This document shows, in pieces, positions 206-64,000 of a stretch of 64,000 nucleotides of DNA. A program made the translations under genes and the position numbers. The DNA lies in contig OZ004582.1 in assembly GCA_963924555.1 (NCBI GenBank), forward strand, positions 9,457,927-9,521,926. Direction: 5' to 3'. Position 1 is the stretch's first letter, and the number at the start of each line of letters is the position of its first letter. Source of the stretch: Crambe crambe. Lineage: Eukaryota; Porifera; Demospongiae; Poecilosclerida; Crambeidae. Under the pieces are notes generated by a model that saw only the letters and a program-made list of their open reading frames with translations, was not told where the DNA came from and made no database searches.

Positions 206-39104
<38,899 letters not shown>

Positions 39105-55064: not shown

Positions 55065-56372
55065 TTAGCAGTGGAGCCAGGGTTTGGGGTTGGGACTAGG
55101 GGTGTCTGCACTGATACGAAAATACAAACAGTCATCCTTCAAATACTGACTATTGGACTCATTGACAAGCTCTTCATGTGCAATAAACTTCTTTTTTCCA
55201 AAACCATTTTTTGCCCTGGTTCCATTTACCACCCTTTGAGTAGTAGATTCATCGTCCCTTCTTTTAGGGTAATTAATGTTACAAGTGTGGTGATAGTCAT
55301 CTTCCAGCTGGTTGAGAAGCATGATGATGACTTTGCCTTGTATGGGCCACTTCAGGTTGTCATCATAGTCCCCCTTCATCAGGTTGGCAAACACTGAGAT
55401 GTGAGATCCCTTTCCTTCACCATTGCCATTGGCATCTACTCTGATGCACATCTTGTACCCACCCTTATGTGTATAGAAGGGTGAACTATAAAAAGTCTTG
55501 TTTGAAGTTTTATGCTGATTGAATGATGGAAATTGAAAAGTTATTTTTCCATCTCTTGGGATGGTGGCTTGCTCAAGCTTTTTATTTAACTTGATAACTT
55601 CATCCATGGCCATAGTAAGGTGAGTCTGACTGTTAATTTCATGTTCTTCCATTTCCTGTCTGCATAGCACTGTCTTGCATCCTAGAAGCTCAAACTTGCA
55701 GTTTATCTTCTCGTGTGGACATGTGAGTTTGTGCTTGTTAAAGTCCATTCTCCTCACACTCTCTCTACAGCCCTCATTGGAACAGTTGACCTTTATGTAC
55801 TGACAAGTTTCTTTATGAGAGCCAGTGATATACTGGTATTTGCCTTCCTCCTTGCAGTGGGGACAAGGGAACTGTCGACATTGGCACTCACTGTCCAAAT
55901 GAGTTTGGAGGTCCTTTTGTCTGATCTTGATCTCTTTTCCATCTCTTCCCTTGCACATGTTAGGACACACAATCATGCAATAGATGCACTGTGAGATGTG
56001 ATACTCAGCTCCGCCCACTTCCCCTGTCCACTCGCAACCATTATCCTTATACTCACACCTGACTCTCAGGGCTCTGATGTTCCTCTCACCTGTTAGTACA
56101 AGAGTTAAGAGTTGGTCATTTTGTTATTATCAAACAACAACAAAACAAAACTTGCTTCGTTTGTCTTTGAAGTGGCTTCCTTGTGTGTCTCTGCAATTAG
56201 GACACTCTTCTTTCTTCTCCCTGTACTTGGTGATGCAAGTGGTACAGAAGACCTTTCCACAGCAGTCATTCTGCAGTGGTTCTTTGGCTGCGAACATACA
56301 TATCAGACAGAGCAGTTCATCTGGGGGTTCTTCTATGAAGTCCAAGTCATAGCCTCCATCTTTCACAGCCAT
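55065..56372 (-). CDS. TRAF-like gene K: copy of gene D (413 aa)
   Basis: Exons 56156-56372 (ATG at 56372, MAVKDGGYDLDF) and 55065-56089 join in frame; GC donor (GCAAGT, antisense 56150-56155). Very close to gene D through the MATH domain (same short coil VIKLNKKLEQ, same PKR/VNGTR region) and with the same upstream flank to about 56614. RING CLICMFAAKE...CCGKVFCTTC...CPNC. It lies outside the CKAP5 intron, in the third duplicated block. Confidence 0.87.
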
Positions 56373-56929
56373 TGCTACAGACGATATTTGCAAACCTGCA
56401 AATAACAGTATGACATACTTGAGATATGCTTATGGTCACTTTCTGAAGGGTACCCTAAACTTGCCCCTTCATTATCCAAACCATTCAGTCCACCATTTTC
56501 TAATCAAGTATAGTACAGTGCTCACCTTCAACTACTTAAGCTTTGGTAATGTGTTGAGTTATTCAAACTTAAAGTTTGAGTAACAAAAGTGGGCGTGTCT
56601 GTTTTAGATATTCATTGATCCAGAACAATGGGATGATTGTACTTTATCTATGGTGGCTCCCAGCCACAGAAGACGGTACCCATCATGGCTGCTCAAATCA
56701 GTGACCGTGACAATACTGTCCGATCATATCTGCAGCCCTCAACACCTAGTCTCGCGGGCCAGACCCTTTACCAACCACGAGGGAAGGAAAGAGTCTGGTC
56801 AAATCCAATACACGATCTTGTTGTGCACAGTCAGCAATCTTCGGAAGGAGGGGCACGACTATGACGTTATTATACATCACGAATTTAGGAAAAACCTGCG
56901 CTCTGGATTTCTTAGCGCTACATTATGGA

Positions 56930-57250
56930 ACGCGGAATCCGCCAAAAATACTGATAGATGTAGTCGATCAAAAATGAATTTGGAATCGATATTGCGAATT
57001 CCGAATCGATTACAAAATCGAACTTGGAATCGATCTGCACGCGCAAAATCGAATTTGGAATCGATTTTCTACAACCATTCGATCACAACTCGAGCTCGAT
57101 CACAATCGATTTTCTGCAACCAAAAATCGAATTTGGAATCGATTTTCTACAACCATTCGATCCCAATCAAGCTCGATCATAATCGATTTTCTATAGCCGA
57201 AATCGAATTTGGAATTGATTTTCTACAACCATTCGAATCTGAACTTTGAC
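56930..57250. repeat. Left subterminal repeat array of the transposon
   Basis: Repeated phrases around GAATTTGGAATCGATTTTCT and ACAACCATTCGATC, at least five units. Mirrored in inverted orientation at 61740-62040. Such arrays often bind transposase, which is inference here. Confidence 0.8.
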
Positions 57251-57303
57251 CCTTTCACACGTCATGTGGTCACGTGCACATGAGAAACCACGTGGCTCTT
57301 GTG

Positions 57304-60012
57304 ATGGCGTCTAAGCAGTCTCTCTCTCCTTCTACCATCAAAAAAGCCAAAGAAGCTTTAAGTGTCCTTAATTCTCTTGTTGGCGATCGCGATGATGCGA
57401 AAGATACGTCGAGAGTTCAAACTGCACGAGATGATCGAGAGGAATCACCACAAACTCGTCGTCATGGTATTTGTTTACAAATAATTGTCGCCAATTTTTA
57501 ACCAAAGTTGTGATTGTCATATAATTATAGGTAAATTAATGAAGGCTGCTGATAGGGCTTTAGAAGCCCTTAGGGGATTAAAGAGAAGGAAAGGTAGCGA
57601 AGGGAAAAGGCCCTTGAAGTCAGAAGTGATTAATGCAAAAAGAGCAAAGAAGTGTGCATGGAAGCATCGCTTTGTATGCCTTGCTTGGAAGGATCAAGGG
57701 AGAGTCCCTACGACTGATACAGAGAAGGACGATCTTATGAAGGCGGGGCTGGGGGAGAAAACAATCGAATTTTCATCTCTAGATATGTCTGCTGAGGAGT
57801 TCAGAGATGAGATCTATTCTGCTTTTCCAAAATTGCAAGAAGGTGGTGGTTTTCATTTTTGTAAATGCATTGCAAATACCAGGAAGCTAGAGCTACTATC
57901 TCCTGTTGTGCATTCTTCACCAGCTTTACTTAAAGAGCGTGTGAGTAATGCCAGGACTTATATCCGTCCCCTCCAGTGTGACTTAGCTATCGATGAAGAA
58001 GTTGATCTTCCTGATGGGGTAAGTAGCTATAGCTCTTATAATTAAAGTATAAGACGATTATTCTCTTTGTTAGCCAAAGGAAAAATGCTTGCTATGTGGC
58101 CTCGAGTTGCCATTGAGTGCTCTTAAGGATCATATTGACAGATGTGAAAAGGAACTGTGAGTATGCACTATAATAATTAATGACTGACAGGAGTTTAAAT
58201 AGTCCTTGTAATTATGCTATTATGATATAATTATAGGAGATCACTTTCACCACTTTCATCATCAACTTCAAGTGCAGAGGATCTCTCACATGGTTTAACT
58301 GAAATGTACAGTTGTATATAAAAAGAAGTGAGATGCTTACATCTAATTCTTATTATCATAGTGGCCATACTGGTGCTGGTAGTAGTACAGGACCTGTTAT
58401 ATCAGTAAGTTTAATAATTTGTATCTACATGTAATCTATACTAAAAATTATTTACAGCAGGAAGATGTCATTTTAGAACACGAATTTGTGCAAGCAGCTA
58501 TCAAGGAGAGTATGTCTGATGTTATTTGTTTGGGTGAGGAAGAGCAGGACAATGTAGTGAAAAGAAGTGGAGATGATGGAAGGTATAACAGTACATACTA
58601 TATAATTCTGTAGCTTAATCTGAATCAATTTGTATATAGCAATATTGCAACTGAAATACGTTCACTTCAATCTCAGCTCTTGGACTCACCTTTATGTCTG
58701 GATATTAGGCGGGACTATGTACTAGTTGATGCTTTACGAGAAGCACGAAAGAAAAAATTTGATTCACGAAAACGCTTAAAGGTTTTTAAATAAAAATTAA
58801 TTAATTATAATTTATTGTTATAATAATTATAGGTTACATTTGTTGGAGAAGGTGCTATCGATCATGGTGGTCCCCGTCGTGAATTTTTCAGGCTCTTTGC
58901 ATTAAAATCCTCAGAAGAATATTTTCATGGGCCTGAAGGGAAAAAATTTTTTGTAAACAATGTAATGGCAGTTCAAGTAAGTAATACACCTCGTGTAATA
59001 TCTAATATCATAATAACAATATCCTTATATTTTTATACATAGAATAATGATTTTTTCTACCTTGGACAGTATGTAGCAATGTCCATTGCGCAGGGTGGAA
59101 ATGGATTTCCATTCTTGTCTAAAGTTGTTTATTCCTACATTGCAAGTGGAAAGTATACGAATATTGATATTGATTTAAATGACATTCCTGATCCAACACT
59201 CCAATTTGCATTAGTAAAGGTATATAGCAGTATTGTGTAGCTATTATGTAATAATTATGTGAACAGATTAATGGAGCAGAGGACAATGATGAGATGAAAG
59301 CAGTTTTGGCCATTGAAGAAGTCCAAGACTTTATTTTTCAGACTGGTTTTAGGAAAGCAATCAAAGACCTTACTGTAGATAACAAGAAGGAGCTGACATC
59401 TATTATGGTAGACTACCATTTAATGGCGAAAGTTAAATGCTGCATGGATCAATTTATTGATGGCCTTCAAGCACTTGGATTGCTAGGAAAGATTCAAGTG
59501 AAGCCTAGCCTGTGGGAGCCACTATTTTGCTCTGATAATTCAAGTTTAACTGTTGGTATGCTTATTACATTAGTAATTTATTTTTTCATGCCTGCTTCTA
59601 TTTATAGATGCTTTGAAGGCTATCTTCAAAATGCACTTTTCTGACAAAGGTTGCAATAGGAGGGTACTACAAGAACAGACATATGTCTTTTTCACTGATT
59701 TCCTTGACGAGTGTGCAGGTATAAATTATTGCTACATGCAATTAAGCTTGTAATCTAATGAGGTTATTGTTGTCAGATGGAGAAGTTGGATGTTCAATCG
59801 AAGACATTTGTGTCTTTTTCTCTGGGAGTAGCTGTGTACCACCCCTTGGTTTTGAAAAACAACCAGTTTTATCGTTTCATGATGGCATGTTGGCAACAGC
59901 ATCAACATGTGAATTGCACATTCGCCTACCCATGGCACACAAGAACTACCCTTCCTTCAGGGATGCAATGATTCTATCCATTAGAGGGAATGATGGTTTT
60001 GGTGGTGTTTGA
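57304..60012 (+). CDS. Transposon-borne HECT-type E3 ubiquitin ligase (about 689 aa, 12 exons)
   Basis: Exons joining in one frame: 57304-57466, 57531-58018, 58074-58156, 58237-58305, 58362-58404, 58458-58582, 58640-58781, 58833-58976, 59043-59219, 59267-59555, 59608-59718, 59777-60012 (2070 nt). An in-frame ATG at 57280 would add 8 residues. Order: basic N-terminus (KKAKEALSVL, LKRRKGSEGKR), C2HC-like finger about 218-245 (CLLCGLELPLSALKDHIDRC), a UIM-like helix about 285-300 (EHEFVQAAIKESMSD), then the HECT domain about 370-689 (GEGAIDHGGPRREFF, YLGQYVAMSIAQGG, active site LATASTCELHIRLP with Cys about 656). HECT ligases accept ubiquitin on that Cys. Target unknown; 3' end faces the transposase gene 110 bp away. 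Confidence 0.88.
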
Positions 60013-60121
60013 ACTCGCTATAGCACACTGACTATGATGCTCTACTTTATGACTCGACACTTATTTGGCTGCTTATCTTATTTGTTTATGATGATCTAAT
60101 AATTATAACAAAGAATAATTA

Positions 60122-61696
60122 TCATGTATTGGACACCACTGTGTGAATATATGTCTTGGCAATGGAAAACTGGTGAATCAGCAGTGCTTCTGTCACAGTC
60201 AACATGGGATTTATTTGCAACAGACGTTCATTCAGAGCAACCTTTTGTTCATCAGAAAGGATCTCATCAATTTCTTCTACTACTACAGTACTATTGTCAT
60301 TGTCGGAAGAGTTAGATCCATCCCATTCAATGTCATAGTCATTACTATCCTACAACAATATAGTCTATGTTAAACAGTAAAAGTTAGCACTTTCTGCTTA
60401 CCAAGTACATCCCAGTGACTGCAGAATCCTCGTGATTTTCTGCACACATTGCATGCATACCTAGTATCCATAATTGTTTGGGGCTTTGGTTTCTTTCTGT
60501 CCTGAGAGGGTGAGAACCCCATGCTTGCATAAATATATCCAGTTGTTTTTGGATTACAGGGATAAAAGCATGGTGTAAGGCATAAAGATCAAGCTGGTCT
60601 TCTATATTTAAAATTCCAGTGTCTTCAAGGAAATAAAAGAAGTAATAAAAAAAGCAAATGCATCCACTGAAGAGATCACGCCAAAGTCGTTCGATTCTCT
60701 GGTTATGTATACTCTTGCCTGCTATTATGCTACCCCTACCAGGGCCTCTTTCAGGATGACTGTTCATATAATGAGCTATAAGCACATTTTCACCACCTTT
60801 GTCAGTGCGTATCCGTGATGGCAGACCGAATTCATCCACAGCCTTCAAAAAGGCTGATAACACAGTTTCTGCTCTGTTATTTGAAGATGCTTGTAAGAAG
60901 GTTATCAGTCGGCTGTAACCATCTATACCACCATGAATTACAATTTTCCACCGAATGAGCTTGTGGTGCCCGTCTATATGCCATAAAGAATTAGGAGATT
61001 TCACATAATACTCCCTTCTGTGAAGGACGCTCCTCATTCTAGATTCAATTCCAGAAGGATCAACCCTCCTCAAAGAGTCTCGAACACGTTGTCTCTGGAT
61101 GCGAATACCTTTTGCTCGAAGCCTCCCATCTACCAATTTTTCGCCACATCTAGGATATGAAGTACAAAGTTCTATCACATGCTCATCCAATTCACTATCT
61201 GATATGATGGTATAGTTACGTGCTGAAAGCTGCCAGGTGTTCATTCGTCTTTCCATGGTTCGCTTACTACAACCCAACAATAAGGCTATGTCTCTCACTT
61301 TAAAACCACTATCGACATAAAAACGAAGCTGGTCTTGTTGAATTTCTATAACAGGCCGACCTTTCAAAACTTCTCTAATCCTTTCATCACGTTCCTCCTC
61401 TATACATCTTAAAATAACGTCCAGAGATGTCAATAATTCTATCAGCAACTCCTGATAGTGTTCATTGATGGATGAGTGAACTGAGGACTCTAGTATTGTT
61501 GCATACTCAACAAATTGCTCCAGGCAACATAGAAGATCTTGATCTGCATAGGTATTGTATCTATCAACCTTATACACACATTCAGTAACTTCTTACCTGT
61601 GTCTGCATCATTTCCATTTTCATAATAATCTCTTACTAATCCTAGTAATCCCTCTCCAAAATCACAGAAACTCTCTACAAGCGAATAGTCCTCCAT
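60122..61696 (-). CDS. DDE/rve-type transposase, IS3-integrase-like (about 489 aa, 3 exons)
   Basis: Exons 61597-61696 (ATG at 61696, MEDYSLVESF), 60402-61543 and 60122-60349 join in frame. N-terminal helical part, HTH about 113-139 (VRDIALLLGCSKRTMERRMN), an IS3 OrfB-like second HTH region (GEKLVDGRLRAKGIRIQRQR), then the catalytic core with candidate residues Asp224 (LWHIDGHH), Asp281 (RIRTDKGGEN) and Glu318 (HNQRIERLWRDLF), spacing D-56-D-36-E. The last exon gives an acidic tail (DSNDYDIEWDGSNSSDND). All three residues are present and frames are intact. The fold suggests the eukaryotic IS3EU-type group; family placement is inference. Confidence 0.87.
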
Positions 61697-61946
61697 CCTA
61701 CATCACGTGCGCGTACGCTCGAGGTTAAAGTTCACATTCTCTGTTCGATTCCTAATTCGATTTTGTGATCGATTTCAAATTCGTTTATAGAAAATCGATT
61801 CCAAGTTCGAAGTTGTAATCGATATCCGAATTCGATTTTTACTTTAGTGGCGACATAGATATATCTATGGTGGCGAGTGCAGATTGTAGAAAATCGATTC
61901 TGAGTTCGATTTTGATTTTGTGATCGAATGGGTATAGAAAATCGAT

Positions 61947-62332
61947 TCAAAGTTCGATGTTGTAATCGATTCGGAATTCGATTTTGTTGCAGAATATCGA
62001 TTCCAAATTCATTTTTGATCGACTACATCTATCAGTATTTTTGGCGGATTCCGCGTTCCATACTACATGGCTGAGCAGGAATATGATTACAGACTGGAGG
62101 CGGCTATTCAAGAGAGTGGGAGGAGGCTTGGAAACAGCTTTCTGGTCAGAAAGTGTCGGAAATTTTTCCAGTGCAACTCCTGCAAGTACCTGGAGCAGTT
62201 CTTTGGCTGATGCACACCCTGGACCATGCAGCCTTTTCTTTTTCCTATGATCACCAATGAGATCTCTGCATACAAGCAAGCAGCTCATTAACATGACCAT
62301 AGATATATCTATGACATGACTAAACTCTACGA
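61947..62332 (-). other. Extra sequence in the right arm with a short open frame
   Basis: Between the inner inverted repeat (to about 62060) and the outer end there is 62065-62330 without a left-arm counterpart. The antisense frame (DHRKKKRLHGPGCASAKELL) is open, but no domain is recognised and there is no start context. It may be captured host sequence. Confidence 0.4.
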
Positions 62333-64000
62333 CTACTCTGTAAGTGCACGCGCGAAAAAATCTGTTTGAGAGCCGTGACGTATCGTGACGTTTTGCGCAT
62401 GCCCCCCACCAAATCTTTGGGCAATTGAAACAGGATCATGTATTGGATTTGACCAGACTCTTTCCTTCCCTCGCGGTTGGTAAAGGGTCGGGCCCGCGAG
62501 ACTACTCAACACCATGGTCGTCGTTTATGGCAATATGGGAGACGGGATCTACAAATTCACATCCCAGGTATAATGTGTACTTATATAGGTAGCGATCCTG
62601 TACCAAATTTAAAAGAGCTGCTTTGTATAGCTGGTGACCCTTTACCGAATCACTATTGGCGATACTTTACCAAAATCACTATGTTGGTGGTGACCCTTTA
62701 CCATAATGTGAAGTCACATTGTTACTCAAAAATTATTTTGTGGTATATGTTATGACCCTTTTACTATCTATATAACATGTAGCTATCAGATAAAGATGTC
62801 AGTCTACTGGAGGAGAGGATAAAATGCTCGGGGATCAAGCCTCCATCATCTGTGACTCCACCCCCTGGCTCCTCCTCTGCTGCAAAACCCCAGGATCAGC
62901 AGCCGACTGACAAAAAATCTCATGGCAAGTAAGTATGGGGAGAAATCAGGAGAAAATAATGATCTCTCTCCCTCCCTCTCTGACCGTAATTATACAAATG
63001 GCTTTTCATTATTTATTATTATTATTTTTTTGAATTTATTTATTGAAGAGAGTGAGAAAGTAATTTAAACTTGAATTTGTAGATCCAAGCTTGCTTCGGA
63101 TCAAACTTCAACTGCTGAATCAACAGCTTCAAGTAGCGAACGAAAACTCGTCACACCAGATCAACCAGCTATTGAAGAAGCACAACTAGAGCCCCCTCCT
63201 CCCGTGGTTCCTGCCCCTGAGCCCCGGAGACCTGGAACCGTTCCAGGACCTTTCAAACTCAACTTCAACTATAAGAAGATGATGGAGACCATGAGCACTC
63301 GCACTGACAAAACTGTAGGACTGAAGACAGAACTGAGCAAAGAACAAGCAGCTCTCTTGGAGGAACCACCTGTCGATATGCCACAGCTTGTTTCAAAGTA
63401 AACAATATTATTTTACAATGACCTTTGCTTGTAGTGTTAGTGTTTATGATCGTTGTAGACACAAAGATTTACAAAATATAGCAAAATTCTGAAACTGAAG
63501 AGTGGAAAGGAAAATGATAAAAAACAGCTGATCCCGAGTGATAGAGGTTCCACTGTATTGTCATACAATGGCCAATTATTTTTTAATAATACAGGTGGTC
63601 GGGTTTTCCCTTGATGTTTACTAAGTACAGTATAGATTAGAGATTTTAAATAACATGACAATTGTTCAGGTTTTCCCTATGTACAGAGATTTGAATTTGG
63701 CGAATAGCAAAATTCTAAAAATATAAATGACCTGCCTACCACATGTTAGGTACATGAATCCATCCTATCCTGTGAACCTCTCCCCCACGAGAATGGCCAG
63801 CACCTCCGCTGCCATCAACTACATCATCTCCCAAATCACCAGCAGTGACCACACCACCAGTTCTAAGGCCATCAGGCAGGTATGTCAGGAGGGAGGGAAG
63901 AACAAGAGAGCCTTGGGAAAATAGTTAAACTACGTTTTACCATACTACCATATTAATTGCAATCCTATTGATTAAGTATAGTTGTATAGCTAAATTTTAT

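Follow-up and report, generated by a model that had tools for sequence, protein, structure and literature searches.

It is well established that DDE transposases mobilise their elements. One superfamily, IS3EU, is defined in the main text of PMC10045372 by an integrase-type DDE core whose first D lies 100-300 residues from the N-terminus, in proteins that have no HHCC integrase N-domain; complete families always have TA..TA ends and usually 6-bp duplications, and HECT does not appear in that main text. Fungal IS3EU elements with TET/JBP have ends of the form TAYGG..CCRTA and 6-bp duplications, and they carry a further enzyme gene, for an alpha-kinase, that is oriented opposite to the transposase gene (main text of PMC12730594, in which neither HECT nor ubiquitin is mentioned). 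Modifying enzymes are thus known as extra genes in this superfamily. The element analysed here, located in a stretch of 64,000 nucleotides of the Crambe crambe genome (the window), has the same kind of ends, 6-bp duplications and a second enzyme gene opposite to the transposase gene, but this second gene encodes a HECT ubiquitin ligase instead of an alpha-kinase or TET/JBP.

The element spans positions 56924-62062 (5,139 bp) and ends in TATGGAACGCGG..CCGCGTTCCATA, i.e. TATGG..CCATA. Its terminal inverted repeats of 70 bp (56924-56993, plus strand, and 61993-62062, minus strand) are identical, and it is flanked by the 6-bp target-site duplication CTACAT, present on the plus strand at 56918-56923 and 62063-62068. 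The same borders were recovered by a scan for ends plus duplications. The termini correspond to the TA..TA ends of IS3EU, and 6-bp duplications were found for the window element as well as for the related elements L012 (CAGCAC), L017 (AAATAA) and L018 (CTTCCA). The core of the transposase is of the integrase type; its first D, residue 224, falls within the 100-300 range, and no match to the integrase zinc domain was listed. On ends, duplication and integrase-type core the element therefore fits the published description of IS3EU, and the predicted class is the one set by that description; the HECT-carrying element is in this sense a variant of a known superfamily. No second intact copy was found in the genome, where a DNA search with the HECT exons returned the window alone. 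Protein searches of the genome identified one decayed partial copy, L025, with pieces of 88-98% identity, and other families that have several copies.

The HECT gene (57304-60012, plus strand) consists of 12 exons (57304-57466, 57531-58018, 58074-58156, 58237-58305, 58362-58404, 58458-58582, 58640-58781, 58833-58976, 59043-59219, 59267-59555, 59608-59718 and 59777-60012) that join to 2070 nt, with GT-AG at the introns, and encode 689 amino acids. The DD36E transposase gene (60122-61696, minus strand) has three exons (61696-61597, 61543-60402 and 60349-60122), which join to 1470 nt, also with GT-AG introns, and encode 489 amino acids. The transposase matched PF24764 (rva_4 integrase core) at 273 bits (cut-off 26) and scored likewise above the cut-off for PF00665; the catalytic residues D224 (60974-60972), D281 (60803-60801) and E318 (60692-60690) are encoded within 60690-60974 of the minus strand. 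The C-terminal part of the ligase, residues 397-687 of 689, matched PF00632 (HECT) at 47.9 bits (cut-off 23.9); the corresponding span, introns included, is 58908-60003 on the plus strand. Solved HECT ligases matched the window protein at an E-value of 3.7e-07 and weaker. Cysteine C656 (codon 59908-59910, plus strand), within the sequence ASTCELHIRLP, is presumably the catalytic residue of the C-lobe, judging from the HECT consensus. It was kept in all 12 loci for which the C-lobe was recovered, a count that includes the near-duplicates L012 and L016 and leaves out L019, L025 and L064, where the C-lobe region is missing, as well as L065, whose fetched stretch shows no HECT. By its domain and this cysteine the 689-residue protein is a predicted HECT-type E3 ligase. 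These results agree with a preliminary description of the region, which had reported two convergent genes whose exons join in frame, an active-site Cys kept in the HECT protein and the residues D, D and E kept in the transposase.

Three further exons of the HECT gene, all on the plus strand, encode recognisable features upstream of the HECT match. The exon at 57531-58018 contains an N-terminal family-specific domain, which was conserved across the eight stretches aligned and has no Pfam match. The exon at 58074-58156 encodes a zinc-finger-like motif, C-x2-C..H-x3-C, read from 15 aligned rows: it was complete in the window, L010, L016, L019 and L020 and degenerate or misaligned in L009 and L017, and the region was not recovered in the other eight rows. 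The exon at 58458-58582 encodes a motif without Pfam match, seen in the window, L009 and L019 of the 15 rows, which resembles a ubiquitin-interacting motif.

The preliminary description had assigned both genes to one flanked unit with other borders, a single transposon of 5,758 bp reaching from 56747 to 62504 with 9-bp duplications. The features on which this was based are real. Inverted repeats of 76 nt with 95% identity are present at 56747-56822 and 62429-62504, continuous at both outer ends; the 9-bp sequence CTCAACACC occurs as a perfect duplication on the plus strand at 56738-56746 and 62505-62513, and again at 33356-33364 (plus strand), whereas 0.63 occurrences would be expected by chance in the window. 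The uninterrupted site at 33356-33364 is a true paralogous empty site, since both of its flanks match those of the outer sequence, a 4-bp indel on the left side being the one exception. However, the sequence enclosed by these features contains the full ends of the 5,139-bp element together with its own 6-bp duplication. When this element and one copy of CTACAT are removed from 56747-62504, exactly 613 bases remain (177 + 436), corresponding to a left part at 56747-56923 and a right part at 62069-62504, both on the plus strand. The remainder aligned over its full length to 33 of 39 other copies in the genome at 93.2-99.5% identity. The alignment crossed the insertion point in 38 of the 39, and the exact 17-base junction at this point was unbroken in 35. 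Moreover, among the 37 copies of the outer type with both ends located, the longest measured 1,186 bp. Together, the inner ends, the CTACAT duplication and the 613-base remainder matched elsewhere show that the empty site and the 9-bp duplication go with an outer element, and that the two genes are part of the inner one. The 5,139-bp element with both genes thus sits inserted in a non-autonomous element, 613 bp long, that belongs to a different family, and 56747-62504 was rejected as one transposon; the probability that it forms a single unit is negligible in our judgement. What stood of the original claim is a mobile unit, at 56924-62062, shared by a HECT ligase and an IS3-like DDE transposase, which also recur as neighbours elsewhere in the genome; neither its boundaries nor the 9-bp duplication nor the empty site stood as properties of that unit. 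How the genes moved can be read from the inner element's own ends, and not from the outer ends, their 9-bp duplication or the empty site. We regard it as nearly certain that the inner transposon is structurally complete and of the IS3EU type, that its two genes are arranged tail-to-tail, and that it lies inside an outer element. The arrangement serves as a caution that matching ends and an empty site may belong to another element than the genes they enclose.

Analysis of the outer family in the genome started from 245 candidates at the first pass, 40 of which were scored; with the window copy set apart this leaves the 39 copies mentioned above. The 37 copies with both ends located had lengths of 226-1,186 bp, too short for the two genes and at odds with the expectation in the preliminary description of several full-length copies carrying both genes between different 9-bp duplications. 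A perfect 9-bp duplication flanked 34 of the 39, and by eye all 34 duplications differ. The other five comprise one with eight of nine bases matching, one with an 8-bp repeat, one with none and two without a second end. The outer element is non-autonomous. Mutator-like non-autonomous elements have long inverted repeats and are flanked by target-site duplications of 9 bp. The outer 613-bp element shares both features, and we tentatively take it to be of this type. Its right flank, 62505-63999, matches 33356-34850 over 1,495 bp at 99.87% identity, a sign that either the duplication or the insertion of the outer element happened very recently. The sequence of the left flank (55201-56615) was found many times in 1887-22834 of the window at 72-93% identity. 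A 16-base palindrome, CATAGATATATCTATG, has one copy in the inner element (61854-61869) and one in the outer element (62298-62313).

The association of the two genes was then analysed across the genome with 59 strong PF24764 cores, defined as matches of at least 173.7 bits among the 155 listed; several are near-identical copies, so that the 59 are not independent. A Pfam HECT match was located within 6 kb of 26 of these listed cores, and 33 had a HECT within this distance when matches to the exons of the window HECT were added. The orientation of the 33 pairs was tail-to-tail in 28 cases, head-to-head in four and in the same direction in one. Random placement (1,000 trials, in which the size of contig C18 was approximate and 37 of 49 match rows had been entered by hand) gave a mean of 1.1 pairs and a maximum of eight, as against the 33 observed. 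Measured against this placement, proximity by chance was rejected for the listed cores. The Pfam and window-exon searches detected no HECT match within 6 kb of the remaining 26 listed cores. Four stretches, L063, L064, L065 and L066, were picked because the HECT N-terminal exon had no match there. Inspection by eye and by profile identified HECT fragments in L063, L064 and L066 and none in the fetched stretch of L065; L063 and L066 were already included in the 33 through Pfam, and L064, with a head-to-head arrangement, belongs to the 26, as does L065.

Starting from the other gene, a transposase match was present within 10 kb of 18 of 27 HECT N-domain loci. The other nine, on contigs C1, C3, C5, C6, C9 and C13, had no transposase match within this distance. 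HECT and DDE genes found apart, which the preliminary description had named as evidence against the pairing, are thus seen in part, at nine of these loci, with a transposase match near the other 18. The HECT loci without transposase could be decayed, non-autonomous or domesticated. One of the nine has a transposase match only just beyond the limit (11.3 kb), and some have open frames.

Ends of the type TATGG..CCATA with a perfect 6-bp duplication around both genes were identified in four of the 25 stretches scanned, namely the window, L012, L017 and L018; internal repeats of palindromic form were likewise returned by the scan and were discarded on visual inspection. L010 and L011 have the ends with an imperfect 6-bp duplication. 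Since clean borders were obtained in only four of 25 stretches, most of the pairs are to be read as neighbours and as candidates for a shared element. L017 (contig C10, 6,218 bp, AAATAA) and L018 (C16, 6,221 bp, CTTCCA) are near-identical and carry both genes each. They are one family with both genes placed together at two sites. The copies with different duplications that had been anticipated for the outer borders were therefore found in the class of the inner element. Some stretches showed additional features. L013-L015 (C1, 8448500-8478100) contain two HECT-transposase copies at a short distance from each other; these are inverted relative to one another and have the same HECT match score, which suggests a large inverted duplication. 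In L022 (C9), positions 4293-8147, inspected by eye, presumably represent an LTR retroelement that separates the HECT part of an IS3EU relative from its transposase part. Near a HECT fragment in L024, an open frame at 2-907 resembles, by eye, a piggyBac-type transposase. The second catalytic position of the L024 transposase reads RAEHGGEN, with E in place of D, while the core is conserved otherwise.

Phylogenetic analysis, which had been proposed as a check, separated the element HECTs of 10 loci from two other HECT genes of the genome by a fully supported branch. The tree left out L016, L019, L025, L026 and L064, some of its branches are long, and the placement of the long rows L063 and L020 is uncertain. 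Kimura distances of the element HECTs from the window HECT ranged up to 2.07. For 14 loci, a set without L025 and L065, HECT and transposase distances correlated with r 0.43, a value reached in 40 of 5,000 permutations. The coefficient was 0.38 over 12 loci (341 of 10,000 permutations as high) when L016, a near-duplicate of L012, and L019, in which one stretch mixes two transposases, were also dropped, and 0.50 over nine loci (279 of 10,000) when L020, L026 and L064 were further dropped. The agreement between the two sets of distances is weak. Near-identical copies gave no support for purifying selection. In L012/L016, the only such pair in which changes were numerous enough, dN was 0.017 and dS 0.020 for HECT, as compared with 0.147 and 0.242 for the transposase; no purifying selection on HECT was seen in this pair, in which the gene looks neutral. 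L010 and L011 were identical across the codons compared, and L017 and L018 had three nucleotide differences in HECT over 449 codons. The contrast in L012/L016 suggests either that the two genes have had separate histories or that the damaged L016 was read poorly; a possible cause is that one gene was swapped between elements, or that a damaged copy was misread. In view of this contrast and of the weak agreement of distances, strict co-inheritance and an ancient capture followed by exchanges or recombination are equally possible.

Taking these data together, we read the locus, with a probability of roughly 0.78, as a complete IS3EU-type element that encodes a DD36E transposase and a HECT ligase that would act on a protein important to the element. 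The transposase would excise the element at its TA..TA ends and insert it via a 6-bp staggered cut, as knowledge of DDE transposases leads one to expect. The HECT protein would use its catalytic Cys to ubiquitinate its substrate, for which the N-terminal domain is the likely recruiting part, and the zinc-finger-like and UIM-like motifs may bind ubiquitin. The substrate may be the element's own transposase, in which case the ligase would control its dosage, or else a host factor for silencing or repair. It is most likely that the ligase aids its element by modifying a protein that restricts it, and its retention is probably due to such a benefit. A contrasting view is that the HECT gene was captured long ago and hitch-hikes as a passive passenger with no effect on transposition. 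This would be consistent with the weak congruence of the two gene trees, the unequal divergence and lack of purifying selection on HECT in L012/L016, and the HECT loci and listed cores that have no partner (9 of 27 and 26 of 59, respectively). However, a passive passenger is expected to decay over distances such as those observed, so that a cysteine kept in 12 of 12 loci at Kimura distances up to 2.07 counts against it, as does the predominance of the tail-to-tail order (28 of 33). We consider the passenger explanation unlikely.

Chances are about even that the main substrate of the ligase is a host factor rather than the transposase. Like the preliminary description, we infer that the ligase may control transposase stability or host defence. 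A ligase that targets its own transposase could limit copy number or overproduction inhibition. The location of its gene in one unit with, and facing, the transposase gene and the single intact copy of the window family found in the genome are in line with this, although other families in the genome reach several copies; taken on its own we regard this version as rather improbable. Removal of a host silencing or repair factor would resemble, by analogy, the role proposed for TET/JBP in fungal transposons, that of aiding escape from methylation-based silencing, and the alpha-kinase gene in the same elements (main text of PMC12730594) adds a second modifying enzyme. Being an analogy, and with a presumed substrate-binding region that has no named fold, this version is somewhat doubtful. 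More broadly, the HECT ligase may be a standing second gene of animal IS3EU, retained across deep divergence to counter host defence or to regulate dosage, and some of the HECT loci without transposase may be host genes that were domesticated from it; we put this forward tentatively, as a possibility short of even odds. If true, ubiquitination would be a transposon weapon, as has been proposed for TET/JBP in fungi. The presence of alpha-kinase and TET/JBP in fungi and of HECT here suggests that the IS3EU superfamily is able to adopt modifying enzymes repeatedly. Should the ligase serve its element, a cut-and-paste transposon would bring its own protein-modification tool, and the HECT-transposase pair would offer a direct route to the host defences against it. 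In addition, some genes called as HECT ligases in animal genomes may be transposon genes.

Fish genomes contain many similar HECT and integrase gene calls, and G2E3 is a HECT-type ligase. In Cottus fish, an unclassified repeat matching the ubiquitin ligase G2E3 has been described (PMC5638112); like the window element it matches a HECT-type ligase and may be the same kind of element, but in the passage that describes it, unlike for the window element, no transposase is given. Our literature searches, with Repbase outside their scope, retrieved no paper that joins IS3EU and HECT, and those on HECT and transposons yielded, among the titles listed, nothing on a HECT-transposase pairing; passages of PMC5560861, PMC12092107 and PMC9587614 contain nothing on a HECT-IS3EU pairing. 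Elements with both genes may already be among the Repbase entries.

Outside the genome, no relatives were found in viral contigs. In the MAG of a Cycloclasticus symbiont (GTDB) obtained from a poecilosclerid sponge, three short contigs encode the transposase at 54, 52 and 50% identity, and other contigs gave three strong matches and one weak match to the HECT N-domain. One of these HECT N-domain contigs, L072, additionally encodes the motif of zinc-finger-like type and the first part of the HECT region. None of the contigs examined in this MAG has both HECT and transposase, and a PF00632 search of it gave no match, a miss that does not show absence there. The transposase and HECT contigs of the MAG (L069-L081) are probably sponge host DNA. 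Transposon and retroelement frames were observed in L069-L081.
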